Source: a virus
Direction: 5' to 3' (one strand)
DNA: 24,450 nt
Virus record (IMG/VR): IMGVR_UViG_3300005581_000130
Span: 1 to 24,450 of that record
The notes beneath the pieces were generated by a model, which made no database searches, had not been told where the DNA came from, and saw only the letters and a program-made list of their open reading frames with translations. Each line of letters begins with the position of its first letter. The stretch's first letter is position 1. A program made the position numbers and the translations under genes. Positions 3,015-21,352 of this stretch are shown here, one piece after another.

Positions 3015-3761
3015 ATGGCAACCGCAAAATTATCAAATACCGCAGTTTTATTAGCCAATGTGCCAGTGGTCAACGGCATCACAGCCGCAGATTTTGTCAA
3101 GCAGCCAGCAGTCAGTAAGACGTTTGGCAAATTTAAATCCACAGAGATACAAGGTCTAATAGCCCAGGCTGCTAAAAGTGCTGGCCAAAGTGCAGATACC
3201 GTTAGCAATACAACCGGGGTTGGGCAGTTTAGTTTTACGCCAACTCAACTTGAAAGTGTGGGTTATTTAAAACCAGATACAGTATCTAGATTTTTAACCA
3301 ACAGCACAGATATTGTTACAGTGTTAAGTAGTCCCATAGTCTGGACTGGAAAAAATGGCGTACTATCGTTGGAAGTATTGTTGTCTGACAGCAAAATACA
3401 AAGCACCATACAGTATGAACTGTTACAATTGGGACTTGCACAATTAACTAGTACTAGAGCCAGTATTGGTAATGTTGCAATCAATAATTTAACTTCGCAG
3501 GAATTGGGCGGTATTGTACAGGCTAGTGCAAAGTACGGTGCCGCAGTGACAACCCAATGGATCAAGGGACAGGCACCAGCAAGCATTGTTACCAATATTA
3601 AAATAATTGCTCAATCTGGAGAATACGCAGTATATGTAGTTGATGCAAAGTTCCCAGAAAATATCAAAGGCCAAGAAACCCCAAGCTCGGTATCAGGCAC
3701 AGTTACGTTGACTACTCTAAGTGAAAACGTGACAAAAATTATCGGTAACAATAAAGTCTAA
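3015..3761 (+). CDS. Hub-associated protein with a degenerate lysozyme/transglycosylase-like motif
   Basis: A 248-residue protein between the spike and gp25-like genes, with 8 bp to the gene before and 16 bp to the one after. The start has a modest AGGA at 3000-3003. Residues 67-86 read 'TGVGQFSFTPTQLESVGYLK', which resembles the 'GxxGxYQFtpxtLexxGYl' segment of lysozyme-like muramidases and transglycosylases; further on come 'VWTGKNGVLSL' and 'ELGGIVQASAKYGAAVTTQW' (163-182), a layout I associate with phage tail-tip cell-wall proteins. The catalytic Glu expected about 20-30 residues before the GxYQF segment is not evident: the local sequence is 'QAAKSAGQSADTVSNT'. It may therefore be an enzyme relic acting as a structural or peptidoglycan-binding part of the hub. 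The spike beside it lacks a lysozyme domain, so a cell-wall role here would make sense. No signal peptide or membrane segment is clear. Function is tentative. Confidence 0.7.
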   Translation: MATAKLSNTAVLLANVPVVNGITAADFVKQPAVSKTFGKFKSTEIQGLIAQAAKSAGQSADTVSNTTGVGQFSFTPTQLESVGYLKPDTVSRFLTNSTDIVTVLSSPIVWTGKNGVLSLEVLLSDSKIQSTIQYELLQLGLAQLTSTRASIGNVAINNLTSQELGGIVQASAKYGAAVTTQWIKGQAPASIVTNIKIIAQSGEYAVYVVDAKFPENIKGQETPSSVSGTVTLTTLSENVTKIIGNNKV

Positions 3762-3777: not shown

Positions 3778-4152
3778 ATGACAACATTTATTGGGTTTAA
3801 CACACAAAATCAATACAAGAAGTTTACCTTAGTTGACTTTGAGTTAATTAAACGAGACCTTCTCAATGCTTTAAACATACGCCAAGGTCAGTTGGTTGGA
3901 AGACCAGCCTACGGCACACGAATATGGGATTATGTATTTGAAAGCCAGGTACAAGAAACTCAAGCAGGCATGGAGCGTGAAATTCAACGTGTCTGTGGCG
4001 GCGATCCTAGGATATTTGTGCAGAGTATCAATGCATATCCTCAAGAAAATGGCATGTTACTTGAGCTACTGATTAGTGTGGTCCCTAGTACAAACGCAGA
4101 ACGCTTGGCTATATTTTTTGATCAAGAACAGCGCACAGCTAGTTACGTATAA
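3778..4152 (+). CDS. 25: gp25-like baseplate wedge protein (gp25/gpW family)
   Basis: At 124 residues it has the normal length of the gp25/gpW (lysozyme-like fold) family; T4 gp25 is 132. The family signature is clear: 'NIRQGQLVGRPAYGTRIWDYVFE' spans about residues 33-55, with the conserved Arg-Pro-x-x-Gly (R42, P43, G46) and the following hydrophobic 'IWDYVFE'. In T4, gp25 joins the inner baseplate to the sheath and works with gp6 and gp53 in the wedge core; despite its name it is not thought to be an active lysozyme. It lies directly before the gp6-like gene, as W precedes J in P2. There is no recognisable Shine-Dalgarno upstream ('aaatatcaatt'), only the GATAAATA box, so it may be translated from a nearly leaderless message or by coupling to the gene before it. 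Confidence 0.92.
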   Translation: MTTFIGFNTQNQYKKFTLVDFELIKRDLLNALNIRQGQLVGRPAYGTRIWDYVFESQVQETQAGMEREIQRVCGGDPRIFVQSINAYPQENGMLLELLISVVPSTNAERLAIFFDQEQRTASYV

Positions 4153-4172
4153 ACAGTACGGTTTATGATGTC

Positions 4173-4180
4173 CATAAATA
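4173..4180 (+). promoter_or_regulatory. T4-type late promoter octamer CATAAATA before the gp6-like gene
   Basis: CATAAATA lies in the 47-bp gap between the gp25-like and gp6-like genes, the largest gap in the window, 19 bases before the ATG at 4200. Initiation at the usual T4 late spacing would fall near 4186 and give a leader of about 14 bases. An A-rich stretch follows it and the site has only a weak CGGA as ribosome-binding sequence. Confidence 0.5.
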
Positions 4181-4199
4181 ATAAAAACAACGGACAACC

Positions 4200-7100
4200 A
4201 TGGCACGTACTACTAGACAAACTGCAATTTTTGGGGTTGAGGACTGGAAAAGAATTTACCAGACCTACCGCGAAGCTGACTTTCAAAGCTACGACTTCGA
4301 AACTCTACGTAAGAGCTTTGTAGATTATCTACGATTATATTACCCAGAAACATTCAATGACTATATCGAAAGCAGTGAGTTTATTGCATTGCTGGATGTC
4401 ATGGCATTTATGGGACAAGCACTTGCATTCCGTACTGACTTAAATACTCGTGAAAATTACCTTGACACTGCTGAACGCCGTGACAGTGTGGTTCGTTTAA
4501 GTAATTTAGTTAGCTATACACCAAAACGTAACACTGCGGCCCAGGGATTATTAAAAGTTTTCTCAGTGACTACCAGCGAATCAGTGTATGATTTCAACGG
4601 AGTTAATCTTAGCAATATCACAGTTGACTGGAATGATCCTACCAATACTGATTGGCAAGAACAATTTACCACAATTTTAAATGCGTCATTAGTCAGCAAC
4701 CAACGTGTTGGACGCCCGGGTAATCGTCAAAATATACTAGGCATAGACACTAGTGACTATGCTATAAATCTTGTACCTGGATACCTACCAGTTGTGCCAT
4801 ACAATTCCACAGTGGATGGAGTTAACATGCCATTTGAAGCCGTGAACAGTACCACCGTTGGCAAAGACTACATATACGAACCTAGTCCCAAACCCAGCGG
4901 TAAATTTAATGTGTTGTTCCGCAATGATCAACTAGGGTTTGGCAGTCCAAACACTGGATACTTCTTTTTATTCAAGCAAGGCGTCCTACAGAACCAAGAT
5001 TTTAACCTAGCTGAAAGAATATCTAACCGCCAAGTAAACATCAACATTGAAGGCATTAACAACGAAGACCGTTGGTTGTACCAATTAGATAATGTTGGAA
5101 CCATTCAAGGTGAGTGGCAGTATGTTGACAACGTTTATGCTGGCGCAGTAGAACAATTAGCACCAGACTTGAGACAATTATTTGCGGTGACTAGTCGCGC
5201 CAATGATCAAATCACACTCAACTTTGGCGATGGTGTGTTTAGTGAAATTCCTGTGGGACTTTTTAGAGCGTATGTACGTGCATCAAATGGATTATCATAT
5301 ATCATTAATCCAGAAGAAATGCAAAGTGTGATTATTCCCATCAGCTATGTTAGCCGCACCGGTAGACTTGAAACGATTACATTTACCTGTGGTATCACTA
5401 CTCCGGTCAGCAATGCACAGAGTCGTGAAAGTATTGACGAAATTAAACAACGTGCTCCAGCAAGATACTACACACAGAATCGTATGGTCAACGGCGAAGA
5501 CTACAATAACTTTCCGTTCACAGCCTACAACAGTATCCTGAAGAGTAAAGCTCTTGCTCGTAGCAGTGTTGGTACTAGTCGATTCTTGGATCTAGTAGAC
5601 AATACTGGCAAGTATTCTAGTACTAATACGTTCAGCAGTGATGGTGCGCTATATGAAGAATCTGAAGCAACACCAACATTCCAGTTTACTTGGTTTAGCC
5701 GTAACGATATTGCTAGTACCATTGCTAATTTACTGCAACCGTTATTGGCAGCACCATCAACCTTACAGTTTTATTACTCAGACTTCCCAAGACCCGGACT
5801 TACCGGACTTAGTTTGATCTGGCAGCAAAGCACAGTTGCAGTCAACGAGTCTTCAGGTTATTTTAACAACAGCACTGGCTCGCCGCAGCCAGTTGGGTCT
5901 TTTGTAACCACAAATGCACAATATATCACAAAAGGTGCATTGATTAAATTTGTTCCGCCAACTGGATATTACTTTGATTCAGACAAGCGGTTAAAGTATG
6001 GTGTGCCAGTCAGCGCCGACGAAACAACTGTGTTGTGGGCAAGTCCAATCTTGGTAGTTGGTGCTGGCGATAATCAGGGAACCGGTAACCTAGCTGATGG
6101 AACCGGTCCGGTGATATTAAACAACTTTGTACCAACTGGAGCAATTGCAACAGTAGTAATACCAGTGTTTGTCACAGATCTACCAGCGTCACTTGAAGAT
6201 CAAATGATTGAACAAATTGTATTGTATCGAGATTTTGGACTTGGATTTAATAATCAAACTGGTGAATGGTATCTAATTACATCCACTAACTTAGCTGTTA
6301 ACCAACCTTTTAGTTTAGCCAATGCTGGAAACACATCTGGCACTAATGTGGATGCAAGTTGGATGGTACAGTTTACCACCGATGGCGAAACATATACTGT
6401 GGTTCTACGTGGTTTAAATTACTATTTTGGCAGTGTGTTACAGACTAGGTTTTTCTTCTACACAGGAGAACCAATTTACGATAGTCGCACCGGTACTGTG
6501 ATTAAAGATTTTGTTCGGGTGTTAAAAACTAATAGTAAACCAGACAGTAACCTTCCCTTAGAAGGCGATACAGACTTAACCATCATTGGTCAAGAAATTG
6601 AAAGTGATGGCTATGTCAACGATTATCAAGTCATTGTTAGCTACCGAGACAGCGACTCAGATGGTGTTGCTGATAACCCAGACTTTTTTAATGATATTGT
6701 AGCACCAAATATTAATAGCAATACCAAATATGTATTCTTCCAACAGACTGTAGACTTTGATAATCTAGAACGATACTTATTAGTTGAGTATGGTGTGGTT
6801 AACTCAGCTTACGCCACCAAAAATAACATAGAACTAGTCAAAGGCGAATACATTCTCACACAAATTTTCTATGCATATAGTCAAAAAACCTTCTGGGAAC
6901 TTACGCTAACTTCTACAGGCAGTCGTGAATTAATTCAACGCAATGATTATATTGCAAGAGTTGGCCGCCAAAGGTTGTATTTCCAATATCGTCACAATGC
7001 TCCGTTAAGTGCCAGAATAGACCCAGGCACAACAAATATTATTGACGTGTATCTGGCAACACAGGAATACTACACTGCATATCAAAATTATGTAAGAGAC

Positions 7101-7607
7101 GTCACAGGCAAGGTTCCTGAACCATCACAACCCACCATTGACGAGTTAAGCGTGGCCTACAGTGGGTTGCAAGATTATAAGATGATCAGCGATAATATGG
7201 TGTTAAACAGTGTTACTTTTAAACCGTTATTTGGTGCCAACGCCGCAGAATATCTGCAAGCAACAATTAAAGTTATCAAAGCACAAAATAGTACAGCAAG
7301 CACCACCGAAATCAAGAGTGCAGTGATTGCTAATATTAACAATTATTTTACAATTGACAAATGGGACTTTGGCGATACATTTTACTTCAGCGAGCTCGCT
7401 GCCTATTTGCATGACAACATGGGAGGCATAATTAGTTCAGTAGTGTTAGTTCCTTTAAATTCTGAAAAGAGCTTTGGCGATTTATATGAAATACGAAGTG
7501 AACCGAACGAAATTTTTGTTAATGCCGCAACTGTGGCAAACGTAGAAGTGATTGATGCACTTACTAGTACAAATATCAAAACAGCACCAGGCAGTGGAGT
7601 AATTTAA
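4200..7607 (+). CDS. 6: gp6-like baseplate wedge protein (baseplate J family), enlarged
   Basis: This is the wedge protein whose dimers form the ring around the hub and that starts the sheath-contraction signal. N-terminal residues about 29-110 have the gp6 signature: 'DFETLRKSFVDYLRLYYPE', 'SSEFIALLDVMAFMGQALA', 'NYLDTAERRDSVVRLSNLVSYTP'. 'ESIDEIKQRAPARYYTQNR' with 'MVNGEDY' (from E410) is the other family hallmark. The C-terminus ('DKWDFGDTFYFSELAAYL', 'GGIISSVVLVPL') also fits. T4 gp6 is 660 residues; at 1135 this one is much longer, the extra being beta-rich sequence between about 470 and 960. That part includes 'DSDSDGVADNPD' (817-828), a calcium-loop-like DxDxDG motif as in thrombospondin type-3 or EF-hand-like loops. 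The stop overlaps the next start by one base (TAATG), so translation is probably coupled. The ribosome-binding site is weak. Confidence 0.9.
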   Translation: MARTTRQTAIFGVEDWKRIYQTYREADFQSYDFETLRKSFVDYLRLYYPETFNDYIESSEFIALLDVMAFMGQALAFRTDLNTRENYLDTAERRDSVVRLSNLVSYTPKRNTAAQGLLKVFSVTTSESVYDFNGVNLSNITVDWNDPTNTDWQEQFTTILNASLVSNQRVGRPGNRQNILGIDTSDYAINLVPGYLPVVPYNSTVDGVNMPFEAVNSTTVGKDYIYEPSPKPSGKFNVLFRNDQLGFGSPNTGYFFLFKQGVLQNQDFNLAERISNRQVNINIEGINNEDRWLYQLDNVGTIQGEWQYVDNVYAGAVEQLAPDLRQLFAVTSRANDQITLNFGDGVFSEIPVGLFRAYVRASNGLSYIINPEEMQSVIIPISYVSRTGRLETITFTCGITTPVSNAQSRESIDEIKQRAPARYYTQNRMVNGEDYNNFPFTAYNSILKSKALARSSVGTSRFLDLVDNTGKYSSTNTFSSDGALYEESEATPTFQFTWFSRNDIASTIANLLQPLLAAPSTLQFYYSDFPRPGLTGLSLIWQQSTVAVNESSGYFNNSTGSPQPVGSFVTTNAQYITKGALIKFVPPTGYYFDSDKRLKYGVPVSADETTVLWASPILVVGAGDNQGTGNLADGTGPVILNNFVPTGAIATVVIPVFVTDLPASLEDQMIEQIVLYRDFGLGFNNQTGEWYLITSTNLAVNQPFSLANAGNTSGTNVDASWMVQFTTDGETYTVVLRGLNYYFGSVLQTRFFFYTGEPIYDSRTGTVIKDFVRVLKTNSKPDSNLPLEGDTDLTIIGQEIESDGYVNDYQVIVSYRDSDSDGVADNPDFFNDIVAPNINSNTKYVFFQQTVDFDNLERYLLVEYGVVNSAYATKNNIELVKGEYILTQIFYAYSQKTFWELTLTSTGSRELIQRNDYIARVGRQRLYFQYRHNAPLSARIDPGTTNIIDVYLATQEYYTAYQNYVRDVTGKVPEPSQPTIDELSVAYSGLQDYKMISDNMVLNSVTFKPLFGANAAEYLQATIKVIKAQNSTASTTEIKSAVIANINNYFTIDKWDFGDTFYFSELAAYLHDNMGGIISSVVLVPLNSEKSFGDLYEIRSEPNEIFVNAATVANVEVIDALTSTNIKTAPGSGVI

Positions 7608-10600
7608 TGGCTCGAGTTAGAACGGTAGACTTTTTACCAGAAATTTTTCAAACAACAACAAATCGACAATTTTTGTCAGCTACTCTTGACCAACTGGTAC
7701 AGGAACCCAAGTTTAAAAAAACACAGGGATTTATTGGAAGAAAAATTGGCCCTGGTGTAAACCCCCAAGACAAATATGTAATTGAGCCAACAGTTGAGAG
7801 AACTGATTATCAACTTGAGCCGGGCGTTATTATCAATGATATCAATACCAACAAACCCAACGATGCAATTACATATCCAGGAATTTTAGATGCATTGCAA
7901 TTACAAGGCGCAGATGTTAGTAAACCGTCTCGCTTATTCACCAGCGATTATTATACGTGGGACCCGTTTATCGACTTTGATAAGTTTGTAAATTTTAGTC
8001 AGTATTACTGGCTGCCACTGGGACCCGACTCGGTTGATGTTGGCAATGATGCGTTACCAGTTACTGGTGATTATACAGTAACACGCTCACCATTATCATA
8101 CACTTTTAGTGACCTGCCGGGCACAAATCCAATTATTACACTAGTGCGAGGCGGAAATTATAAATTTGAATTAAACCAAGCCGGCCACCAATTCTGGATT
8201 CAAAGTAGCCCAGGCGTCAACGGGCGCAGTCCTGTGTCTCCCAACACGTCAAGTAGAAATGTGTATGGGGTAGTAAATAATGGTGCTGAATTTGGCACTG
8301 TAACATTTAATGTTCCAAAAAAGAATGCCCAGGATTTTTATTATAACCTAACTCAAGTTGCATCAGTTGATTTACTTGGGCAAAATTTAAAACCAGCAGA
8401 CATTGATGGTGTTCCGTTAAATGAGTTTTTAACAACATATCCCACTGGCATCGACGGAATCACTGACCTTCGGGGTCGAAGTATTATTTTCCCTAGCCGT
8501 TCAGAGGGAGGCTGGAATATCACAACGTTGTTTGATCCTGTAGTTGCAAATAGTAATAATAATGGACTGCCGGGATCGTTTGACACATACTCATTTTCTC
8601 AAGATACAGAAATTACAAGTATCAACGAACGGTACAGTGTTTGGCAAATTAATTATATACCAGACACCGACGGAAGTTTTATCTTACAATTAGTTAGTAT
8701 TCGGAGTATCAACGACAAGGAAAAGTTTCAAATTTTGTTTGGAACACAATGGGCTAGTACATTTTGGTACAAGTATGATGGGATATTTCTTGAAGTACCA
8801 GCACTGACAGCCGTGTCTGATATACTATACTATCAAGACAGCACCAATCCAGTAATTTTTGGACAGATTCGATTACAAGAACCAACTGGTGCTGAAAATA
8901 GTTATTTGTTTATTGAAGATATTGTTGGCAAAAAGAATTACACCAGCCCAAATGGGGTGGTGTTTACCAACGGACTAAAAGTTCAATTTCAAGGTCGTAC
9001 ACTGCCAACAGAATTTGAAAACAACATGTATTATGTTGAAGGGGTGGGTACTGCAATCCAGTTACTGCCCACAGTGAATTTTGTTACGCCAGAAGCATAT
9101 ACCACCAGTCAAACAATTCCATACGACAGCACGTTCTTTGACTCAGACAACTTTGATGCAAACTTAAATGCACCACGTCAGCAAGATTATATTACCATCA
9201 ACCGAGCCAGCGAAGATTTAAATGCGTGGACTCGCAGTAATCGTTGGTTCCACATTGATGTGATTCAAGCAACATCTGAGTATAACAATCAACCAATTGA
9301 CACTTATAATATTAGTCGTGGCAAACGTCCAATTTTAGAATTCCGGCCTGGTGTAAAAATTAATCAGTTTGGAACTAAAGGCAAACGTCCAGTTAATGTT
9401 ATTGATTTTACTGAAACTGATGCATTAAGCAATATCAATGGTCTAACAGGCTATGGCATTAACGGCTACTCGTTGATTGCAGGAACTCGGATTATTTTTG
9501 CCGCAGATATTGACGATCAAGTCCGTAATAAAATTTATCGTGTAGAATTTATTAAACCTGATTCTGTGCTGCCGTTGATACAGCAACCAGTTATTAACTT
9601 GGTTCCCGCAGAAGATGCAACGCCGTTAATTGACGAAACTGTGGTTTGCTTAAATGGTATTACACTACAGGGTAAAAGTTTTTACTTTGATGGGATCACC
9701 TGGACATCAGCACAGGATAAAATAGCAGTTAATCAACCGCCATTGTTTGATGTCTATGACGTTGATGGATTTTCATTGGGTAATAGGGCCAAGTACCCCA
9801 GTTCAACATTTGTTGGATCAAAATTGTTTAGCTATGCTCAGGGCAGTTCTGGTAGTACCAAAGATGCAGTACTGGGATTCCCCTTAAAATATCTATCGTT
9901 AAACAACGTTGGTGATATTGTATTTGATAATAATTTATACACTGACACATACATTTATGTTAAAGATAGTGTCAGCGAAACTGTGGACATTAGCGTGGGC
10001 TTTGCTAGACAGTACAGTTCAAGAGTTGACTACCAATCGTTGTTGGGCTGGCAAAATGCTGCCGCAAAGAGCCAAAATTATCAACAGTTTAGTTTTGTCT
10101 GGGACGGAACTGTTTTAAAATTGGATATTCCAGTAATACTCGAAGCTGAATATCCCGGAATTAAAGCCTATGCCAACAGTGCATTTATTGATCCATCCAA
10201 CTATGTGGTGACTGTGACCGATACAGGCACAGAAATTCTAATGTTGCAGGAGTATGTGCTAGGAACAATCATTGAACTTGTGGCACTTAGTGACCAGGCC
10301 AGCCGTGTGGGGTTTTATCAAGTGCCCAGTAATCTTGAATGTAATCCGCTGAACTTAAACTCGTCAAACTTTACATTGGGTACTATTAGAAATCATTATC
10401 AAAGCATTGCTGAAAATTTAAAGCAGATCACTGGCAAAATTAACGGTGCAAACAACAGTAGAGACTTGGGTAATATTATTCCTTATGGATTAACATTATT
10501 GCAACAAAGTAGCCCGTTGACTTTAACTGGGTACTTCTTACGTAAGTCTGAGTATCAAGTATTTTCAGCTATTGAATTTAACAGTCGGGAATATACAAAA

Positions 10601-13600
10601 TACAAATCAAGATTACTTGACAAGGTAGTAAAAACAGATTGGGGCACACTAACGGTGCCAGAGATCTTAACCAATGCAGTTGTTGATGTGTCATCAGGAA
10701 GAACTTCGTTGTCGCCTTTCTATTGGAGTGACATGTTACCAGCCGGTAGTGTGTATACTGAAAATATATATACTTTTACTTCAATTTCGACCTACATTTT
10801 TGATACAATACAAACCTACGATTTTAACAGCAGTAACTATTTAGGATTGTTGGTGTATGTGAACGGTGAGTTATTAAAAATAAATTACGACTATGTAGTC
10901 ACAGTGGGTGCACCTAGCTTTACAATTATTAGAACTTTAACACCTGGCGATAAAATTAGTGTACAAGAATTTCCTGCAACCTACGGTAATTTTGTACCAA
11001 ATACCCCTACTAAGATGGGATTGTACCCAGCCTACAAACCGGAAGTGTATATAGATTACAGCTATGTTGAAGCTAGAACAGTAATACGCGGACATGATGG
11101 TAGTATTACTGTGGCCTTTGGTGATATACGTGATGAGGTATTGCTTGAGTTTGAGAATAGAATTTTTAATAATTTAAAAATTCGTTCGACGATACCGCTG
11201 AGCACAATTGACGTGATACCGGGCCAATTTAGAAAAACTGATTACAGTGCGTCTACAATTCAAACCATGCTTGGTAGAGATTTCTTAAGCTGGGTTGGGT
11301 GGAATAAACTTGACTATCGAAGTCAAACGTATATTCCCGGAAATGAATTCACCTACAACTACAGTAGCGCAGGCAATAAACTTGATGGCAAACCGTTGCA
11401 AGGCGCCTGGCGCGGAATTTATCGTACATTTTACGATACTGAAAATCCTAGCAGCCGTCCCTGGGAATTATTAGGGTTTACCGAAGAGCCATCCTGGTGG
11501 CAAACTCGTTACGGATCAGCACCATACACCGGCGAAAACTTGGTGCTGTGGGATGATCTTGCGGCAGGTCTTGTGGATGACCCAGCTGGAGCATATATTA
11601 AGCCGGCCTATATCCGTGATGGATTAACATCAGTTATACCAAGCGGCAGTGAAGGCACATTGTTAAGTCCTTTTGACAGTGTGGTTGGAAACTATGATCA
11701 ACTACAGTTTAAAAAGAGTTGGACTGTGGGCGATGTTGGTCCAGTTGAGGCCAGCTGGTATAATAGTAGTAGCTATCCGTTTGCAGTAATGAGATTGCTG
11801 GCATTAACTCGCCCGGCTGAATTCTTTAGTTTGTTTGTTGACCGTGATCTATACAAATACAGCGACGAAGTTGGACAATATTTGTATAACGGACGTTATA
11901 GATTTAATCCAACTACCTTAGAAATCTATGGGAATGGTGTTAGCAAAGCTAGTTACATCAATTGGATTGTTGACTACAACCGACAACTTGGTAAAAATTC
12001 CACTACAGAATTAACCACAGATTTGGCCAATATTGATGTTCGGTTATGTTACCGCATGGCGTCATTCAGTGATAAACAATATTTAAAAATTTATAGTGAG
12101 AAGTCAAGCCCTAACAGTTTAAACAACAGTTTAATGTTGCCAGATGAAAGTTACAGTATTCTGTTGTACAAAAATCAGCCATTTGAAAACATTGTTTACA
12201 GCTCGGTCATCATTCAGAAAACAGACGCTGGATACACAGTCAATGGATATAGCACACTAAACCAATATTTTAACATCTTGGTAAGCCAAGCGACGGGGGT
12301 TACTGCAACTATATCTGCAGGTGGGTTAGCAGTTAAAGTTCCAATACAATACACATCCACAGTGGTCCAAGTTCCGTACGGTTATGAATTTACAAATGCA
12401 TCGGTTGTTTGCGACTTCCTATTAAGCTATGGCGAATTGTTAAAACAACAAGGAGTAATCTTTGACAATATTGACAACGGATATGTATTAAATTGGCAGC
12501 AGATGGCTGCGGAATTTTTATACTGGAGTCAACAAGGATGGGGTGTTGGCGCAATTATTAACTTGAATCCGGCAGCAACCCGCATACAGGTTGTCAAACC
12601 CCTGGCTGTAGCTGATACAATTATTGAAACATCCCCAGAAACAATTATTCAGGACCAAAATAGATCAAGATTGCCAGTGCGCAATCTCATTATAGAACGT
12701 TTGGAAAATACGTTAACAATCACCAGCCCAACTGAAAAAACTATCAGTTATCTATCACTGAACTTTACAAATTTTGAACATTTGATTGTGTTAGATAATA
12801 TTAGTACGTTTGCTGACCTAATATATCAGCCAATTACTAATGCACGACAAAGTCGGTTATTGCTGATAGGCTTTACTACCACTGAGTGGAACGGCACAGT
12901 TGATGCACAGGGGTTTGTGTTAAATGAAGACAATATCAAAGAGTGGCAAGCCAATGTTCGATACACCAAGGGTCAAATTGTATCTTACAAGAACAATATA
13001 TGGAGTGCACGAACCATTGTCCAACCTAAAACTGAATTTGAATACAACGACTGGCTAAAAAGTGATTACACACGCATTCAAACAGGATTGTTACCTAACT
13101 TACCAAATAAAGCCAATCAGTTGCAGAATAGTTATAATACTAATAATGCCAATCTTGAGACTGACAACGACTTGTTAAGCTATGGACTAATTGGTTTTAG
13201 ACCAAGACAATACATGCAGGCATTGAATCTTGACGATACCAGTCAGGTTAACTTGTATTCTCAGTTTCTTGGGACAAAAGGAACTGTGCGCAGTGCTGAA
13301 CTATTTACATTTGCTAATCTTGGAAAAGAAGCGGCTGAATATGTCATATACGAAAACTGGGCAATTCAACGTGGAGTGTACGGTGCCAGTTCAAATCGTA
13401 GCTTCTTTGAATTACAACTTGATCAATCTAAGTTAACTGGGAACCCTAGCATCATTGAAATAGTGTTGCCACAACAACAGAGCAATGCTGATCAGACTGT
13501 ATTAGTTGACAATATATGGAAAGAAAGTTATAAAATAACCAATTTGGATATTTTGCCAACCCATTACCTTGTGTTAAATGACAAAACATTGCCCAATGCT

Positions 13601-16600
13601 GGATACGTTGATATTGATGATATAGATATTACAGTATTTGATATCAACGATCCAACAAGCCTAAGCGCAGATCTTGACACAATTGGTGTTGGTACAAAAA
13701 TCTGGGTTGCAAAAATCAATAATCATGATTGGGGAGTTTATCGTACTTCGCTGGCCCCTGGAAATATTACACAGTTAAGCGACAACCTTAACGGTACTTG
13801 TGTTGCACAGTTTACAGTTCCGCACTTGTTGATAGTTAATCAGACTATAATTATTAAGTTCTTTGATCCAGCAGTCAACGGTGTGTACCGTGTGTTGTCT
13901 ACGCCAACCATTGATTCTATTGTAATAGAACTTACCCTACCAGATCCCATTGTTAATTTAACTGGAATAGGAGTTGCGTTTGAGTTAGACACCATGCGTG
14001 TTTCTCAAGCCAGTGACATACTTAACCTAACATATTCTGCAGAATTACTCCCTGGTGCATTTGTCTGGGTTGATAATATTGGCGACGGTCATTGGGCAGT
14101 ATTACAAAAAGAACAACCATTTTCAGCAATCATTGACTTGGAACCCGAAACTCTAATCATCAATGCTGGGTACGGGCAATCGGTGGCACAATCAAAAGAT
14201 AATACCGGAGCATTAGTTGGCACGCCAAGTTTTGACGCAAATGGTGCAGTATATGTGTATAGTCGGGGACAGGATGTACTATATGCATCCAGTTTATTAT
14301 TACAGTTAAACACAGTAAACACTTCTGAATTTGGTGCATCAGTGGCAATGGCCTCAGCTGATTGGGGAGTCGTTGGAGCGCCCGGTAGCTTATACAACAC
14401 TGGATACGCCGCAGTAGTGTATAAAGACCCTAGTACTGGTGCCACTGAAATCACACAGTTGTTGATTGGGTATGATCAGCCAGGTCCTGGAAGATTTGGT
14501 GATAGTGTTTCAATTAGCCTTGATGGTAGATGGATTTATGTCGGTGCACCCGACGCCAACGAAGTTTATGCATTTGGTCGCGTTGACATTGAAATGCAGT
14601 ATAAATCTTATATTGCAACTGGATTAACAAACAGGTTCTCAGCGGCCGACATCATGTTTGATAACAATTCTCAACTTATTGTTGTTTTAAACAACAAAGA
14701 GTTAGTTATAAACACCAACTATAGCATATCTGGCACAGACGTTGTGATCACTGAAACTCCAACACTTGGTAATCTAATTACAATTCAACGCAAAGTTGCA
14801 GTACAACTTGACCATAATGTTTATTATGAAGTAATACCAATAAGTACCTCAGGTTCAGGCACCGGTGCAACGTTCACTGTTGAAAGAACTCGCGGAGCGT
14901 ATACGGTTACTGTGTCTGCACCTGGCATTTCGTATGCGCCCGGCGACACAATTACTATTTCAGCTGCCGACGTGGGTGGCGGTACTGTGCCAACAAACAA
15001 CCTTACGTTAACTGTGATTGGAGTGGGTGGTGTGGGCGGCGTCCAAGGTGTATCAGTATCTGGATTTGCATCCACATCAAACTCATTCCAGCTCAGAGAC
15101 AATTTATATACCGCAGAAAATATCTGGAGTTTTAGTGTATATGTCGACGGAATTTTACAGCGTCCTAAATTAGACTATGAATATCAAGGTGCAATTCCTG
15201 ACAGTTCATTGACCCCATACGAGCTGACATTTGTTACTATTCCAGCGTTTGGGTCTACCATCATTGTTCGAGCAAAGACCTATTTTGAATTGTCAACAAT
15301 TATTAAACCGTCTAGCATCAACATTGGTGCAAGATTCGGGCATAGTGTTTATACTAGCACAAACGGTCAACAAGTACTAATTGGTGCACCTTATGCCAAC
15401 GTTGGATCAGTTACCAAAGCTGGTAAAGTTTTTGCATATGATCGTAGTATTGAAAATTTTGTTGTCAGTGATCCAACCCAAAAATCATTTACTACGCAAG
15501 CCACATTGGTATCTCCAACTAGTGTTATATTGAATAATGTGTTTTTATCAAATGCTGAAAATTACAACAACGGTCAATTTACTGTTGCTAGTAACACAGT
15601 TACGCTACTATCAAATGTAACTTTAAATGTTGGCGATATTGTTACCATTGATACTAATAACTTTAATTTGTTACAGGAAGTAGTTGCCAACACGCCAGGC
15701 CAGGATGCATATTATGGGTATGCTGTTGATTTATGTGTTAATAATTGTAGTTTGTATATTGGCTCACCAAATGATAACACAGTATTACCAGCCGCAGGTA
15801 GTGTTGATCGTAGCGTAAATCAAAGTAGAATATATGGTGCAATTAGTACAACATTGCCAACAAATACTGTGTTTACAGTTGGCAACAGTATTAGGATCAA
15901 CAATATTCCAGTGACGTTAACTGGAACCAGCATTGATGATTTAATATCAGATATTGCCACAGCTAACATTACCAATGTGGTTGCGGTGGCAGCCACCAAT
16001 GGTAGTGACACTATCATAACTATTTCTGTTAAAAACTTTGCGGCAGCAACTCCTTTGGCACGATTGACATTGGCACCTGGATTTGGTACCGCCTGGACAA
16101 CATTGAACTTTCCAATTTTTGTATACACCCAAACAATTGAGAGTCCAAACCCAGTTGAGTTTGCAAAATTTGGTTCCTCAATAAGTGTTGACAGCAGTGC
16201 AAATGCATTGATTATTGGGGCACCACAGGGAAACACAGTGTTGCCAGTGACATTTGATAAAGGTACAACCACCTTTGACGCTCGATCAACAACATTTAAT
16301 TCAACATATCTTAACAGTGGTGCAGTGTATGAATTTGACTATTTGCCAAGTGCAAACGATTCAACATCTAACCCCGGCAAGTTTGTATTTGGCCAACAAA
16401 TTGTTGACGGCACAAAAATTGAACAATATGATTTGTTTGGTCAATCAGTGAATTATGTATCAGGCATATTAATGGTTGGAAGTCCGGGAGACGATCTTGG
16501 TGATAGCACAACCAGCAATGTCAACTATGGCCGTGTTGGACTGTTCTCAAACCCAACATTAAAACAAGCCTGGACTGTAGTTCATAGACAGCAACCGGTT

Positions 16601-19600
16601 GTTGAGATCGAACTACTGAATTCAACATTTATCTATGATATTGGAAAAACCACTGCACAACAATATTTTGACTTTTTTGACCCACTGCAAGGTAAAATAT
16701 TAGGTGCCGCCCAGCGCAACATTGATTTTATCACAGGAGTAGACCCAGCATTGTACAATGTTGGTAATGTTGATAGTAAGAATACCTGGTACACCACACA
16801 AGTTGGTAAAGTTTGGTGGAACACTAGTACGGTGAGATTTATTGATCCCAATCAAGATGACATTACTTATGCAAGCAAGAAGTGGGGAAATGTGTTCCCG
16901 GGCAGTAGTGTTAATGTATATCAATGGATTGAAAGCGAAGTGCCACCAGGCCAATATACTGGAGAAGGAACTCCGTTTAGCCTGATTAACTATAGCGTTA
17001 ACACATCCTTGACTGTGAATGGTACATTTGCCACACTGTATTATTTCTGGGTAAAGGGTCTACGAGCAGTGGCTACCAAAGCTGGCAAAACATTGAGTAT
17101 AGAATCAGTTGCGCAGTATATTGAGAATCCCAGAAGTAGTGGTATTCCGTACATTGCTTGTTTGAATGGTAGTACCATTGCAATTTACAATGGGTTTGAG
17201 TATATTAATAAATTAAACTCAATCATACATATTGAATTCGACAAACAACTAACTGATGCCAATGTTCACTTTGAATATGAATTAATTGCACAAGATAAAA
17301 CTGATAGTTTTATCAGTGCTGGATTATATAGAAAACTGCAGGACAGTTTCTGTGGCTCAGACACATTGGGTAATCTAGTTCCTGACCCTACGTTGAGTCT
17401 AGGCGAACAAATTGGTGTTCAGGTTCGTCCACGCCAGAGTATGTTTGTTGATCGGTTTGGGGCATTAAAAAATTACCTACAACGTGTTAACAGAATACTG
17501 GCACAGTATCCAATTTCTGAAACTCGCAAGTTTAATCTATTAGACAGTGCAGAGCCAATACCCACTGCTGCCAGTGGCGCTTGGAACAAAACTGTAGCTG
17601 ACTTGCAGGAATTAAGTTATCAAGATTTGTTAATTGTGCCTATTGGGTACAAGTACCTGGTGTTAAGTGATTCGTCGCAGAATGGTCTATGGACCATATA
17701 CGAGCACATCAGTTATGGTACATTACAACTAAACCGTGTACAAGGATATGATACTCCGCGTTACTGGAATTACATTAACTGGTATGCAATTGGGTATAAC
17801 CGCAGTACCAGCATTGTTACCGAAGTAGCAAACTATACAGGCTTATCAACACTATCTGTGCCACCGGGTTCAAGTGTACAAGTTACTGCTAATGCACAAG
17901 GTAAATTTGAAATTTACTTATTAACTGATCTAGGCTGGGAACGTGTTGGCTTAGAAGATGGCACCATTGCATTCTCAGAAAGTTTATGGAATTACCAAAT
18001 TGGACGATTTGGGTTTGACGTTGAAGTCTACGATGCTCAATACTATGACCAAGCACCGATTGAAGAAACTCGCCGAGTAATTCAGGCAATTAATCAGGAA
18101 TTGTTCATTGATGAATTGTTAGTTGAGCGCAACCGCGCACTAGTATTGATGTTTAACTTCATACTGTCAGAAACAAACAGTCCGGAATGGATAACTAAAA
18201 CTAGTTTAATTGATGTTGATCATAAGATTCGAGACTTGGTGCCTTATCAAATTTATCGTCAAGATAACCAGGATTTCGTACTGGACTACATACAGGAAGT
18301 TAAGCCATACCATGTACAGGTTAGGGAATTTAACTTAACGTACAACGGTAATGACATTTATTTAGGTAGTCTTGCCGACTTTGACTTGCCAGCATTTTAT
18401 GATACTGCATTGCCAGTACCACAATTTGTGAGCCCAATCTTAGATGATACCGGGCAGATGTCTGCTAATAGTAGCATTCCTAGTACATCATCGCTGTGGA
18501 CTACATTCCCTTACAATCAATGGTTTAACAATTACCAGTTGTCTGTGGTATCTGCATCTGTTATTGATGGCGGCACGGGATACTCCAGTCCTCCGCAGGT
18601 TGCAGTAACTGGTGATTGCATTACTCCAGCAGTTATAGTCAGTGTTATCAACAGTGCTGGCAAAGTAGTTGCGTTAAACGTGCTGGACAGCGGCACAGGA
18701 TATGTGTTGACTCCGGTTCTTGAACTAATTGGTGGCGCTGGCACCGGTGCTACAGCAGTGGCAGTTTGCTACAATTCTTTGGTGAGAACTATCATCACCA
18801 CAATCAAGTATGACCGATATCAGTATAACAGTACTGTGGTACCTTGGGAACCAGGCGTAGCATATGAAAATGGCACACTGGTCCGCTATATCAATCGCGT
18901 GTGGCAAGCAACTAGTACAGACAGCACAGTGCTGCCAGCAGATACATTTGATCCAGATAACTTTACATCAGTGCCAGCCAGCGAACTCAGCGGCGTTGAT
19001 CGTACCATGGGATTCTATGTATCTCAAGTTAACACCCCTGGACTCGATTTACCGTTATTAGTAAATGGGGTCGAGTACCCAGGTGTACAAGTTAAAGCAG
19101 TGAGTTTTAGTGAAAACACTGGATTTGATATTGGTAATTTTGACGTCACGCCGTTTGATAATATTAGTTATGGGCCAGACGGAAGACCAACTTACAGTGA
19201 CACTATCTTAGATGCTGAATATCGTAGTAGCTTTAGCGATGTATATCTTGGAACCCGTGTCACAGACATCAATGTCAGTGGTGGCGAATTTGTTGGACCA
19301 TATGAAAGCCATGCGCCAGAAGAACTTATACCAGGAATCATATTTGATACTGTGGATATTCAGGTAACTACACGACCAGGGGCTGATTGGACGGGCCGTG
19401 GACACGGATGGCCACAAGATTCAAAATTCTACACATTTAATTCAACAACACCGACTATTAGTTTTGTTGGAACAACAGTTAAATATCCCACTGTGGTAGT
19501 GGTAACTAACACAACACAGCAATTGGATCTGAATCCAATTACTAATTACACAGTTGACTATAACGCTCAAACTATTACGTTTACTAGTGGTGTTAACAAC

Positions 19601-21352
19601 AACGAAATTATTGCAGTTAATGTGTTTGGATTAGGCGGTGGCAACCAATTGTATCGCGAAAATAAAAACGGTGCAGACATTGGTATTACCACAATAATAC
19701 CGGTAGCCTACAATGAAATCAATGAAATTGTTGTGTTTATAAATGGCTCAAATTTTACAAACTTCACGTATGAATCATTGATAACCGACACTAAAATTAA
19801 TTTTGGTATTCTATTAAATCAATTTGATGATGTGTTGATTGTTGCATTGGGAGTAACTGATGATAGTTTCCAACGCTCATGGAGTACCGCAGTAACTCAG
19901 TATATTACTATTACTGACCCCACAGAACTAACATACACGTTAGATAATACCCTTGAGTATTCTAACCCAGATAATATTGTAGTTACTAACAATGGATTTA
20001 GAGCACGCCCAGCACAAGGTGTTGGGTACATTGCTGATGGTAGTAGTGCAGACTTTTTATTACCACAACGTGGAGGATATAGTCAAGGACTGATTGCCGA
20101 CAATGACGTACGAGTATACATCAATGGGCTAAATCAAACATTGGGTACAGATTTTACCGTTACGGTTTGGGATGGAATCTCACCAAGATCGGTTATTCTT
20201 GCTAATACCCCGGATTCGGGAACATCAGTATCGATTGCAGTGAGTACTCGTGCTCAATACGTTGTTAGCCTTGATTCAAGTAGTAACGAAATCACGTTCC
20301 GTGTTGACAGCCAATTTGGTCTACAAGTTGGTGATGTTTTAGCAATTACAACTTGGAATGATACCAGCGAACAAAACTTGTTAACTTTGGTGTATGTTGG
20401 CCCGTTGTCCGAAGGCACGGTAACATATCAGGCCTATGACGAAACCATATTTGACGAAGCCACTGTTCCTGGGCCAGGCAGTTTCGACTATGGAGTTGGT
20501 GTTATTGTATATTACAACGACTTCCAACTTGGCAGAACAATAACTAACTCGTCTCGTTTATGGGTGACGTTAAACGGCTTTAGACTTTTTGATGGCATTG
20601 ACTTTACCATACAAGATCAAGAGTTGATACTTAATTCAGGGCCAGTTGGGCAGTTTGATGTGCTGGCAGTAACTTTGTACACCGATACTGTTGTACCAGA
20701 TGAATTGTCATTCCGTATATTTCAAGACATGCGCGGTGTGCAAGCCACTTATAGAATTACAGATAATTCTACCACTGAATTAACAGTGACATTGGGTGAC
20801 TATGATGACACAATCTATGTCAATAACGCATCAGTGTTGCCTGTGCCAGATTTAACTGTAAATCTTTGGGGTATTGTAATGATTGGTGGTGAACGTATTA
20901 TGTATCGCTACATTAACCTTGAAAATAACACACTCAGTAGTTTGTTGCGTGGCACTGGCGGAACTGCAAAAGCTGGACATTTCCCCGGGGATAAAGTCTA
21001 TGATTTAACTGCAGATAATTTGCTAATGGTTGAATACCAGGATCGATTTGTAACATACAATGAGATTGCTGATGGACAACAACAAGAGTTTGTTACAGAT
21101 ATTTCTGTAGAAACAATTGACAATGCCGCAGTATTGGTATTCGTTGGCGGAATTGCATCAACTGATTACATATTAACTGCAAATAGTCCAGTAACTGTGT
21201 TCTTTAACCCAGCCCCAATAGCCGGTTACCAAGTAACGGTACAGGTTCGTCGTGGATTGAGCTGGTATGAGCCTGGCGAATCCACTGCCAGTGATGGGAT
21301 AGCATTGCAGGAAACCAATACTCAAGCCGCAAGGTTTTTGAGAGGTTTTTAA
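7607..21352 (+). CDS. Giant multidomain peripheral baseplate/tail protein (4581 residues)
   Basis: One uninterrupted frame, starting at TAATG overlapping the gp6-like stop, with GGAG 7 bases upstream. Domain order as read: conserved N-terminus ('RTVDFLPEIFQTTTNRQF', then 'YYTWDPFIDFDKFVNFSQYY', from about 115); cupredoxin-like barrel 174-259; beta-rich body to about 1050, with 'YYVEGVGTAIQL' and 'GKRPILEFRPGVKINQFG'; central block from about 1224 ('DFLSWVGWNKLDYRSQTY'); CBM5/12-like motif 1780-1820; 'YVIYENWAIQRGVYG' block near 1910; interrupted FG-GAP propeller 2186-2985; 'HKIRDLVPYQIYRQDNQDF' and 'EVKPYH' from H3539; paired GTGY units 3655 and 3695; second CBM-like motif 3747; 'ELIPGIIFDTVDIQV' near 3905; repeated beta-modules 3945-4555; conserved C-terminal tip ('LQETNTQAARFLRG'). 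I know these blocks from large structural proteins of aquatic phages. It sits where T4 encodes gp7 and further wedge proteins, suggesting an outer-baseplate part that also carries host-binding domains. Exact function is not established from sequence. Confidence 0.85.
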   Translation: MARVRTVDFLPEIFQTTTNRQFLSATLDQLVQEPKFKKTQGFIGRKIGPGVNPQDKYVIEPTVERTDYQLEPGVIINDINTNKPNDAITYPGILDALQLQGADVSKPSRLFTSDYYTWDPFIDFDKFVNFSQYYWLPLGPDSVDVGNDALPVTGDYTVTRSPLSYTFSDLPGTNPIITLVRGGNYKFELNQAGHQFWIQSSPGVNGRSPVSPNTSSRNVYGVVNNGAEFGTVTFNVPKKNAQDFYYNLTQVASVDLLGQNLKPADIDGVPLNEFLTTYPTGIDGITDLRGRSIIFPSRSEGGWNITTLFDPVVANSNNNGLPGSFDTYSFSQDTEITSINERYSVWQINYIPDTDGSFILQLVSIRSINDKEKFQILFGTQWASTFWYKYDGIFLEVPALTAVSDILYYQDSTNPVIFGQIRLQEPTGAENSYLFIEDIVGKKNYTSPNGVVFTNGLKVQFQGRTLPTEFENNMYYVEGVGTAIQLLPTVNFVTPEAYTTSQTIPYDSTFFDSDNFDANLNAPRQQDYITINRASEDLNAWTRSNRWFHIDVIQATSEYNNQPIDTYNISRGKRPILEFRPGVKINQFGTKGKRPVNVIDFTETDALSNINGLTGYGINGYSLIAGTRIIFAADIDDQVRNKIYRVEFIKPDSVLPLIQQPVINLVPAEDATPLIDETVVCLNGITLQGKSFYFDGITWTSAQDKIAVNQPPLFDVYDVDGFSLGNRAKYPSSTFVGSKLFSYAQGSSGSTKDAVLGFPLKYLSLNNVGDIVFDNNLYTDTYIYVKDSVSETVDISVGFARQYSSRVDYQSLLGWQNAAAKSQNYQQFSFVWDGTVLKLDIPVILEAEYPGIKAYANSAFIDPSNYVVTVTDTGTEILMLQEYVLGTIIELVALSDQASRVGFYQVPSNLECNPLNLNSSNFTLGTIRNHYQSIAENLKQITGKINGANNSRDLGNIIPYGLTLLQQSSPLTLTGYFLRKSEYQVFSAIEFNSREYTKYKSRLLDKVVKTDWGTLTVPEILTNAVVDVSSGRTSLSPFYWSDMLPAGSVYTENIYTFTSISTYIFDTIQTYDFNSSNYLGLLVYVNGELLKINYDYVVTVGAPSFTIIRTLTPGDKISVQEFPATYGNFVPNTPTKMGLYPAYKPEVYIDYSYVEARTVIRGHDGSITVAFGDIRDEVLLEFENRIFNNLKIRSTIPLSTIDVIPGQFRKTDYSASTIQTMLGRDFLSWVGWNKLDYRSQTYIPGNEFTYNYSSAGNKLDGKPLQGAWRGIYRTFYDTENPSSRPWELLGFTEEPSWWQTRYGSAPYTGENLVLWDDLAAGLVDDPAGAYIKPAYIRDGLTSVIPSGSEGTLLSPFDSVVGNYDQLQFKKSWTVGDVGPVEASWYNSSSYPFAVMRLLALTRPAEFFSLFVDRDLYKYSDEVGQYLYNGRYRFNPTTLEIYGNGVSKASYINWIVDYNRQLGKNSTTELTTDLANIDVRLCYRMASFSDKQYLKIYSEKSSPNSLNNSLMLPDESYSILLYKNQPFENIVYSSVIIQKTDAGYTVNGYSTLNQYFNILVSQATGVTATISAGGLAVKVPIQYTSTVVQVPYGYEFTNASVVCDFLLSYGELLKQQGVIFDNIDNGYVLNWQQMAAEFLYWSQQGWGVGAIINLNPAATRIQVVKPLAVADTIIETSPETIIQDQNRSRLPVRNLIIERLENTLTITSPTEKTISYLSLNFTNFEHLIVLDNISTFADLIYQPITNARQSRLLLIGFTTTEWNGTVDAQGFVLNEDNIKEWQANVRYTKGQIVSYKNNIWSARTIVQPKTEFEYNDWLKSDYTRIQTGLLPNLPNKANQLQNSYNTNNANLETDNDLLSYGLIGFRPRQYMQALNLDDTSQVNLYSQFLGTKGTVRSAELFTFANLGKEAAEYVIYENWAIQRGVYGASSNRSFFELQLDQSKLTGNPSIIEIVLPQQQSNADQTVLVDNIWKESYKITNLDILPTHYLVLNDKTLPNAGYVDIDDIDITVFDINDPTSLSADLDTIGVGTKIWVAKINNHDWGVYRTSLAPGNITQLSDNLNGTCVAQFTVPHLLIVNQTIIIKFFDPAVNGVYRVLSTPTIDSIVIELTLPDPIVNLTGIGVAFELDTMRVSQASDILNLTYSAELLPGAFVWVDNIGDGHWAVLQKEQPFSAIIDLEPETLIINAGYGQSVAQSKDNTGALVGTPSFDANGAVYVYSRGQDVLYASSLLLQLNTVNTSEFGASVAMASADWGVVGAPGSLYNTGYAAVVYKDPSTGATEITQLLIGYDQPGPGRFGDSVSISLDGRWIYVGAPDANEVYAFGRVDIEMQYKSYIATGLTNRFSAADIMFDNNSQLIVVLNNKELVINTNYSISGTDVVITETPTLGNLITIQRKVAVQLDHNVYYEVIPISTSGSGTGATFTVERTRGAYTVTVSAPGISYAPGDTITISAADVGGGTVPTNNLTLTVIGVGGVGGVQGVSVSGFASTSNSFQLRDNLYTAENIWSFSVYVDGILQRPKLDYEYQGAIPDSSLTPYELTFVTIPAFGSTIIVRAKTYFELSTIIKPSSINIGARFGHSVYTSTNGQQVLIGAPYANVGSVTKAGKVFAYDRSIENFVVSDPTQKSFTTQATLVSPTSVILNNVFLSNAENYNNGQFTVASNTVTLLSNVTLNVGDIVTIDTNNFNLLQEVVANTPGQDAYYGYAVDLCVNNCSLYIGSPNDNTVLPAAGSVDRSVNQSRIYGAISTTLPTNTVFTVGNSIRINNIPVTLTGTSIDDLISDIATANITNVVAVAATNGSDTIITISVKNFAAATPLARLTLAPGFGTAWTTLNFPIFVYTQTIESPNPVEFAKFGSSISVDSSANALIIGAPQGNTVLPVTFDKGTTTFDARSTTFNSTYLNSGAVYEFDYLPSANDSTSNPGKFVFGQQIVDGTKIEQYDLFGQSVNYVSGILMVGSPGDDLGDSTTSNVNYGRVGLFSNPTLKQAWTVVHRQQPVVEIELLNSTFIYDIGKTTAQQYFDFFDPLQGKILGAAQRNIDFITGVDPALYNVGNVDSKNTWYTTQVGKVWWNTSTVRFIDPNQDDITYASKKWGNVFPGSSVNVYQWIESEVPPGQYTGEGTPFSLINYSVNTSLTVNGTFATLYYFWVKGLRAVATKAGKTLSIESVAQYIENPRSSGIPYIACLNGSTIAIYNGFEYINKLNSIIHIEFDKQLTDANVHFEYELIAQDKTDSFISAGLYRKLQDSFCGSDTLGNLVPDPTLSLGEQIGVQVRPRQSMFVDRFGALKNYLQRVNRILAQYPISETRKFNLLDSAEPIPTAASGAWNKTVADLQELSYQDLLIVPIGYKYLVLSDSSQNGLWTIYEHISYGTLQLNRVQGYDTPRYWNYINWYAIGYNRSTSIVTEVANYTGLSTLSVPPGSSVQVTANAQGKFEIYLLTDLGWERVGLEDGTIAFSESLWNYQIGRFGFDVEVYDAQYYDQAPIEETRRVIQAINQELFIDELLVERNRALVLMFNFILSETNSPEWITKTSLIDVDHKIRDLVPYQIYRQDNQDFVLDYIQEVKPYHVQVREFNLTYNGNDIYLGSLADFDLPAFYDTALPVPQFVSPILDDTGQMSANSSIPSTSSLWTTFPYNQWFNNYQLSVVSASVIDGGTGYSSPPQVAVTGDCITPAVIVSVINSAGKVVALNVLDSGTGYVLTPVLELIGGAGTGATAVAVCYNSLVRTIITTIKYDRYQYNSTVVPWEPGVAYENGTLVRYINRVWQATSTDSTVLPADTFDPDNFTSVPASELSGVDRTMGFYVSQVNTPGLDLPLLVNGVEYPGVQVKAVSFSENTGFDIGNFDVTPFDNISYGPDGRPTYSDTILDAEYRSSFSDVYLGTRVTDINVSGGEFVGPYESHAPEELIPGIIFDTVDIQVTTRPGADWTGRGHGWPQDSKFYTFNSTTPTISFVGTTVKYPTVVVVTNTTQQLDLNPITNYTVDYNAQTITFTSGVNNNEIIAVNVFGLGGGNQLYRENKNGADIGITTIIPVAYNEINEIVVFINGSNFTNFTYESLITDTKINFGILLNQFDDVLIVALGVTDDSFQRSWSTAVTQYITITDPTELTYTLDNTLEYSNPDNIVVTNNGFRARPAQGVGYIADGSSADFLLPQRGGYSQGLIADNDVRVYINGLNQTLGTDFTVTVWDGISPRSVILANTPDSGTSVSIAVSTRAQYVVSLDSSSNEITFRVDSQFGLQVGDVLAITTWNDTSEQNLLTLVYVGPLSEGTVTYQAYDETIFDEATVPGPGSFDYGVGVIVYYNDFQLGRTITNSSRLWVTLNGFRLFDGIDFTIQDQELILNSGPVGQFDVLAVTLYTDTVVPDELSFRIFQDMRGVQATYRITDNSTTELTVTLGDYDDTIYVNNASVLPVPDLTVNLWGIVMIGGERIMYRYINLENNTLSSLLRGTGGTAKAGHFPGDKVYDLTADNLLMVEYQDRFVTYNEIADGQQQEFVTDISVETIDNAAVLVFVGGIASTDYILTANSPVTVFFNPAPIAGYQVTVQVRRGLSWYEPGESTASDGIALQETNTQAARFLRGF
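8126..8383 (+). other. Degenerate cupredoxin-like domain in the giant protein (residues 174-259)
   Basis: The stretch 'NPIITLVRGGNYKFELNQAG', 'HQFWIQ', 'VYGVVNNGAEFGTVTFNVP', 'FYYNL' follows the plan of the plastocyanin-like beta-barrels found in aquatic phage structural proteins: 'rG.tY.F...ghpF.I', 'Gv.NNG...G.v.F.vP', 'l.YyC..H..M.G'. The first His is kept, but the last ligand loop that normally supplies Cys, His and Met reads 'YYNLTQVASVDLLG' (Y245 onward), with N247 at the Cys position. The fold is inferred and copper binding is unlikely. Confidence 0.55.
12944..13066 (+). other. CBM5/12-like (chitin-binding type 3) motif in the giant protein, residues 1780-1820
   Basis: 'WQANVRYTKGQIVSYKNNIW' then 'SARTIVQPKTEFEYNDWLK' keeps the short aromatic plan of chitin-binding type-3 modules: W.....Y..G..V.Y....W.A and a final W. 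Such modules bind polysaccharide through the exposed aromatics. Phage fibres and baseplate proteins often carry them, so a glycan-binding role is plausible. The motif is short and chance similarity cannot be excluded. Confidence 0.5.
14162..16560 (+). other. Seven-repeat FG-GAP (integrin-like) beta-propeller with inserted domains, giant protein residues 2186-2985
   Basis: Seven repeats begin with an F/YGxSV-type motif and continue to a GxP motif: YGQSV at 2189 (then LVGTP), FGASV 2242 (VVGAPG), FGDSV 2297 (YVGAPD), FGHSV 2577 (LIGAPY), YGYAV 2703 (YIGSPN), FGSSI 2855 (IIGAPQ), FGQSV 2944 (MVGSPG). Most are followed by a 'vyvYs/vfaYd'-type strand. This is the FG-GAP repeat of integrin alpha-subunit propellers, and seven is the canonical blade number. 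Repeats 1 to 3 are 53-55 residues apart; the later gaps of 280, 126, 152 and 89 hold additional beta-domains. The DxDxDG calcium loops of integrin blades are not seen. Blade 5 has a CVNNC pair. Confidence 0.7.
18221..18334 (+). other. Conserved 'HKIRDL...EVKPYH' block in the giant protein (from H3539)
   Basis: 'HKIRDLVPYQIYRQDNQDF' followed by 'DYIQEVKPYHVQVREF', preceded by a helical stretch ('RNRALVLMFNFILSE') and 'WITKTSLIDVD'. I recognise this as one of the best-conserved segments of large structural proteins in aquatic T4-like phages, which suggests a structural or assembly contact rather than host binding. No enzymatic motif is visible. Confidence 0.5.
18845..18967 (+). other. Second CBM5/12-like motif in the giant protein, residues 3747-3787
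   Basis: 'WEPGVAYENGTLVRYINRVW' then 'QATSTDSTVLPADTFDPDNF' repeats the plan of the motif near residue 1780: W, Y..G..V.Y, W.A, and an aromatic (F) in place of the last W. It follows two glycine-rich GTGY units (3655-3659 and 3695-3699, 40 residues apart). Glycan binding is an inference from the motif. Confidence 0.45.
19435..21300 (+). repeat. Run of related beta-modules ('V.VxxNG' core) forming the C-terminal part of the giant protein
   Basis: Repeated protein modules of about 65-80 residues share a core 'V.VxxNG....g.DytV....I.f...p..gd.v.v': VFINGS at 4043, VRVYINGLN at 4168, LWVTLNGFRL at 4319, VLVFVGGIAS at 4509, with a more divergent unit near 3960. Related units occur further upstream: VYVNGELLK at 1083, VVLNNKEL at 2359 and VYVDGILQRP at 2511, the last two inserted between propeller blades. 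Similarity is at the protein level only; no tandem DNA repeat is visible, so the duplications are old. Confidence 0.55.

Follow-up and report, generated by a model that had tools for sequence, protein, structure and literature searches.

Does a giant phage baseplate protein carry a closed propeller of the type that forms integrin alpha heads, and what might such a domain do there? The question is raised by a 24,450-base virus record (the window), which contains a baseplate operon; all features described here lie on the plus strand. The operon encodes a baseplate hub/tail lysozyme family protein (gp5-like; 1483 to 3006; phrog_13211, E = 2.3 × 10−32), a small baseplate wedge subunit (3778 to 4152; phrog_43 and phrog_975) that we take to be gp25-like from family background, and a gp6-like baseplate wedge subunit (4200 to 7607; phrog_10646, E = 1.6 × 10−279). 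Directly downstream of the gp6-like gene is a giant open reading frame encoding a 4,581-aa baseplate/virion protein, the host of the propeller (7607 to 21352). By gene order, this frame occupies the slot of T4 gp7; two flank queries of the giant protein had no sequence match in the PDB, which does not exclude kinship with T4 gp7. The virion structural protein profile phrog_10938 matched across the conserved core of the giant protein (E = 4.5 × 10−267), and no NCBIfam family was found for the whole protein. Homologues occur in PA5oct, Atu_ph07, Phosso, SCTP-2, Vibrio 2.275.O, and 121Q, with flanks aligning to six isolate phages. The PA5oct homologue is annotated "ESI-MS/MS" (mass spectrometry) in its record, consistent with a virion protein. 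Gene order, PHROG matches, and these mass spectrometry notes support the assignment of the propeller-bearing protein as a putative phage baseplate protein.

The preliminary description had reported seven F/YGxSV...GxP repeats, at residues 2189, 2242, 2297, 2577, 2703, 2855, and 2944 of the 4,581-aa protein. A regular expression for the repeat ([FYLW]G.[SAT][VIL]...[GA][ATSV]P) recovered exactly those seven in the giant protein, whereas composition shuffles averaged 0.12 matches and never had more than 2. The proposed Pfam search of the region was also borne out: FG-GAP_2 (PF14312) matched residues 2101 to 3050 above the cutoff (47 bits against 23; E = 3 × 10−12) and scored 34.6 bits on the whole protein. 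When blades were scanned singly, five of seven matched FG-GAP_2, clearly only for blade 1 (1.3 × 10−4) and blade 7 (0.0094); values for blades 3, 4, and 6 were 0.025 to 0.083, and blades 2 and 5 gave no match. By Pfam alone, this comes close to what had been named as evidence against a propeller, significant matches in no more than one or two repeats; the evidence of relatives and of structure overrides this. A blade profile built from 78 sequences detected exactly seven domains in the window protein (21 to 40 bits each), although this profile includes the window protein and is therefore not independent. A PDB sequence search with the propeller profile returned no match.

Structure prediction gave the seven blades around one axis that the preliminary description had anticipated. 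The AlphaFold model of the monomer (residues 2135 to 3012; 67 input sequences) was confident (pLDDT 90.4, pTM 0.90) and contained seven blades of four strands each, plus inserts. All 50 of the best PDB matches listed were integrin alpha heads (VIA-align; Z = 36.2 to 40.3; root mean square deviation [RMSD], 2.6 to 3.0 Å; 346 to 371 residues; ∼20% identity), in a 50-row list that re-examines Foldseek's own top matches. The top match reached a Z of 40.3 (RMSD, 2.7 Å; 357 residues). These alignments cover model residues 36 to 859, corresponding to residues 2170 to 2993, which is the whole ring. Global TM-scores from Foldseek were low (0.16 to 0.32 by query length), as is expected for a model with three large inserts. 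L110, a distant relative that has no large inserts (519 aa; 40 sequences), was modeled with a pLDDT of 87.0 and a pTM of 0.90 and again resembled integrin heads (Z = 33 to 36), and some relatives have a bare propeller of ∼480 aa that is also integrin-like in fold. Given that the bare L110 propeller is integrin-like, the ring is the domain core and the inserts are additions to it. These models predict that the seven repeats close one ring. We conclude that the observation of a seven-bladed propeller is real and that the domain is, as strongly predicted, a complete FG-GAP propeller of integrin alpha type.

The propeller occupies residues ∼2170 to 2993 (14114 to 16585), as indicated by repeats, Pfam, the blade profile, AlphaFold, and the structure match; the span first given (14162 to 16560) was in the right place but slightly too narrow. 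It includes an N-terminal strand (residues 2173 to 2178; 14123 to 14140; DSSP strand 39 to 44 of the model), beside model residue 36, with which integrin residue 1 aligns. This is probably the ring-closing strand, as in integrin alpha, judging by its position in the model. Blades were delimited by the blade profile and AlphaFold. Blade 1 (residues 2189 to 2232; 14171 to 14302) and blade 2 (2242 to 2286; 14330 to 14464) are followed by three blades with inserts in the strand 3-4 loop, delimited by DSSP strands: blade 3 (strands 1 to 3, residues 2297 to 2326, 14495 to 14584; strand 4, 15281 to 15304) has an insert of 232 aa (2327 to 2558; 14585 to 15280), blade 4 (strands 1 to 3, 2577 to 2619, 15335 to 15463; strand 4, 15638 to 15682) has one of 58 aa (2620 to 2677; 15464 to 15637), and blade 5 (strands 1 to 3, 2703 to 2738, 15713 to 15820; strand 4, 16118 to 16138) has one of 99 aa (2739 to 2837; 15821 to 16117). 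Blade 6 (2855 to 2932; 16169 to 16402) and blade 7 (2944 to 2995; 16436 to 16591) complete the ring. In beta-propellers, one face is formed by the 1-2 and 3-4 loops, and the opposite face by the 2-3 and 4-1 loops. All three inserts, being in strand 3-4 loops, therefore lie on the same face. Across the 78 sequences, insert length ranged from 140 to 249 aa in blade 3 and from 95 to 215 aa in blade 5; a few of these relatives also have insertions or length variation on the opposite face. The inserted modules in blades 3 to 5 had escaped the preliminary description, as had the role of the propeller as the mark of one clade.

The blade 3 insert consists of two xVNGxLxxxxDYxV modules flanking a GxxYxxGDxITI module. 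The small xVNGxLxxxxDYxV...P..G..I.V module is repeated at residues ∼1081, 2338 to 2400, 2490 to 2560, 4168, and 4312, and thus serves both in this insert and elsewhere in the giant protein. In one relative (L083, 7313 to 10000; query residues 359 to 437), an insert module is 50 to 56% identical to tail fiber genes of the Sinorhizobium phages phiLM21 and phi3LM21, a likeness to siphophage proteins that is suggestive of exchange among unrelated phages.

The opposite face carries a conserved loop, FDKGTTTFDARSTTF (residues 2883 to 2897; 16253 to 16297), found by alignment conservation in the strand 2-3 loop of blade 6. Its pattern, FDxGTTxFDxxSTxF, is almost invariant in the propeller clade (Asp2884 in 78/78, Asp2891 in 77/78, and Thr2895 in 76/78 sequences) and hardly occurs in the rest of the giant proteins. 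The shorter pattern TxFDx(2-4)TxF was present in 116 of 161 hinges first labeled propeller-bearing versus 2 of 48 others, the labels here coming from a loose regular expression and differing slightly from those on the final tree; outside the hinge, it occurred 7 times in 756,381 residues. The loop overlaps the lowest-confidence part of the AlphaFold model.

Compared to known systems, the domain has over its full length the same ring of seven FG-GAP blades as the integrin alpha head (alphaM, alphaX, alphaL, alphaV, alphaIIb, and alpha4). Integrin alpha likewise has domains inserted in inter-strand loops, the insert there being the I domain; however, it inserts between blades 2 and 3, whereas the phage protein does so in the strand 3-4 loops of blades 3 to 5. 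Integrin alpha also has DxDxDG calcium loops, which the phage propeller lacks: no DxDxDGxxD motif (strands 1-2, C-terminal blades) was found in the propeller, and the strand 1-2 loops are only 2 to 5 residues long in all 78 aligned sequences, too short for integrin calcium loops to be present. Integrin alpha is half of a membrane-anchored heterodimer with a beta subunit; the phage propeller is part of a protein encoded in a phage baseplate operon and has no known thigh domain, beta subunit, or other partner. Without calcium loops, the domain is integrin-like and not an integrin. Bacterial FG-GAP_2 proteins similarly have short hairpins with no calcium loop, but the phage propeller differs from them in being embedded in a virion protein and in carrying inserts in three blades.

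Both bacteria and giant viruses commonly have integrin-like FG-GAP propellers, and similar predicted folds were also found in other viral proteins (Foldseek, E = 3 × 10−31 to 7 × 10−10): A0A6J5L8L4 and A0A6J5S3H5 from uncultured Caudovirales, H6WG31 from cyanophage S-TIM5, the "hemagglutinin" A0A2L0UZX4 of Atu_ph07, and giant-virus FG-GAP proteins. Phage propellers of integrin-like type are therefore not unprecedented. H6WG31, A0A2L0UZX4, and A0A6J5S3H5 are small proteins (∼390 to 470 aa) and do not form inserts within a giant baseplate protein; A0A6J5L8L4 may belong to the same family. Chain U of the cyanophage A4 portal-tail complex (9k09_U) matched the propeller model by Foldseek (E = 3.5 × 10−8), but its global superposition was poor (TM-score, 0.18; RMSD, 23.7 Å), indicating local likeness only; we found no paper on this structure. 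Our literature search, which covered a minority of subscription journals, returned no description of a phage baseplate with an FG-GAP or integrin-like propeller. The earlier statement that the propeller is not part of the T4 model was fair, since no T4 counterpart was found and close isolate-phage relatives are without the domain. The novelty is that a fold already known occurs in a new setting, carries inserts, and defines a clade.

Scanning IMG/VR with the conserved flank that follows the propeller (residues 2988 to 3305) recovered 80 loci, and a 78-sequence alignment showed an architecture common to all, with a propeller region 37 to 47% identical to that of the window. Added scans led by PA5oct, SCTP-2, and Phosso raised the set to 209 distinct flank-bearing reading frames. 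Seven blades were detectable in 71 of the 74 strong scorers with the propeller profile; weaker classes showed fewer, because the profile loses them, and 24 of the 55 sequences that it missed entirely still matched FG-GAP_2 (best, 1.8 × 10−17). On a tree of the flank, 165 sequences with the propeller and 44 without it were split by a single branch (FastTree SH-like support, 99). The tree is unrooted, so either one gain or one loss of the propeller is compatible with it. One sequence, L248, was relabeled "none" for this tree on inspection, having been called propeller-bearing by the loose regular expression only, with no blade-profile match; with its original label, the tree needs two changes. 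The idea that the propeller site is a frequent domain-swap hotspot was dropped, as the flank tree needs only one change of label. These data show, or strongly predict, that the propeller is common to one whole clade of related large phages, and this clade-wide single origin would make it useful as a marker.

A search of 50,697 isolate phage records found no propeller. In isolate relatives, the alignment covers residues 1 to 2058 and resumes at ∼2974 to 2991, with 82 to 1,527 unrelated amino acids in between. The giant proteins of PA5oct, 121Q, SCTP-2, Phosso, and Vibrio 2.275.O are homologous before and after the propeller and share its gene neighborhood, but have other or almost no sequence at the propeller site and no FG-GAP propeller. 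In Phosso (L005, 12001 to 25581), the homologous site holds ∼1,500 aa rich in GxGYxxxPxVxxxGGGGxGA repeats and no propeller. Nine propeller-less sequences (L261, L263, L264, L272, L274, L278, L280, L302, and L311) have a related hinge of ∼820 to 840 aa of another kind, one member of which weakly matched Pfam MtrC-MtrF_N (2 × 10−4, below cutoff). By eye, SCTP-2 seemed to contain a LamG-like domain, but Pfam did not confirm it. A profile search of genome contigs identified no relative and hence gave no clue to the host.

What, then, is the propeller for? It is probably a binding or docking head. The reading that we favor, with about even confidence, is a baseplate-anchored adhesion or binding head, plugged into the protein with a variable face toward the host and a constant face toward a partner. 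Because the ring termini are close together, the propeller could protrude from the baseplate and leave the flanking conserved core undisturbed. The insert-bearing, fast-evolving, length-variable face would point to the host surface and serve as the adhesion surface, while the near-invariant blade 6 loop on the other face may be in contact with an unchanging partner (a virion protein, metal, or sugar ligand, for example). Alongside the tail fibers, such a head could aid the landing of the baseplate on the cell. Within the close clade, mean pairwise identity was 0.51 for blade cores and 0.41 to 0.52 for inserts, compared to 0.62 to 0.65 for neighboring regions (residues 900 to 1780, 0.62; right flank, 0.64); the C-terminal part of the giant protein (4000 to 4581) also diverges fast (0.49). 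It is this faster evolution, together with the tail-fiber-like inserts and the chitin-binding-like stretches described below, that favors adhesion. However, swapping or loss of host-binding domains is frequent, whereas all 165 propeller-bearing sequences sampled have kept theirs, to which a structural role fits at least equally well, and the length variation of some relatives on the other face also speaks against adhesion.

An assembly platform is a possible alternative, to which we give distinctly less than even credence: the propeller would dock a virion protein (a neighboring wedge, a tail fiber, or a whisker) with no direct host recognition, by analogy with the integrin alpha head pairing with its beta subunit. 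The single gain or loss on the flank tree and retention by all sampled carriers suggest a domain integral to these baseplates, and it is this single origin without loss that keeps docking at the level we give it. A near-invariant loop of low model confidence is likewise expected when a segment takes up its fold on a fixed partner. On the other hand, a platform sits poorly with a propeller that diverges faster than the rest of the protein and carries large, length-variable inserts, and PA5oct, 121Q, and others build baseplates without one.

We tentatively propose, as something that may well prove wrong, that an integrin-alpha-type propeller was acquired a single time by a whole clade of large phages, became part of the baseplate wedge, and serves there as a second, baseplate-anchored recognition head, whose inserts on one face can be exchanged while a docking loop (FDxGTTxFDxxSTxF) on the other stays fixed; if true, this would be a recognition-head baseplate design not described for T4-type phages. 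A passive spacer or armor, that is, a stable beta-rich bulk domain widening the baseplate rim with no specific ligand, is improbable: giant phage proteins do have many beta modules, and xVNGxLxxxxDYxV recurs here near residues 1081, 4168, and 4312, but the near-invariant loop within a variable region would be left unexplained. That the repeats of a beta-rich protein merely resemble FG-GAP by chance is hardly credible, despite the weak single-blade Pfam matches, in light of the shuffle test, the FG-GAP_2 match, the spacing conserved in relatives, and two confident models best matched by integrin; the fold prediction has already refuted it, as far as this is possible short of an experimental structure.

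The finding places a binding fold best known from animal cell adhesion receptors in the baseplate of a large uncultivated phage group, and yields testable predictions about the propeller ligand, the cell-facing side, and the role of the invariant blade 6 loop. The domain is compact enough for expression alone.

Elsewhere in the giant protein, two stretches resemble CBM_5_12 (chitin-binding type 3; E = 5 × 10−9), one of them at residues 1779 to 1801 (12941 to 13009). Weaker matches of this kind occur in the PA5oct, SCTP-2, and Phosso homologues, as well as in several hinges that lack the propeller. A phrog_460 head-closure match at 3645 to 3758 was judged to be a repeat cross-match. Two propeller-bearing relatives, L077 and L083, lie on contigs of 340 and 262 kb, respectively, which fits jumbo phages.
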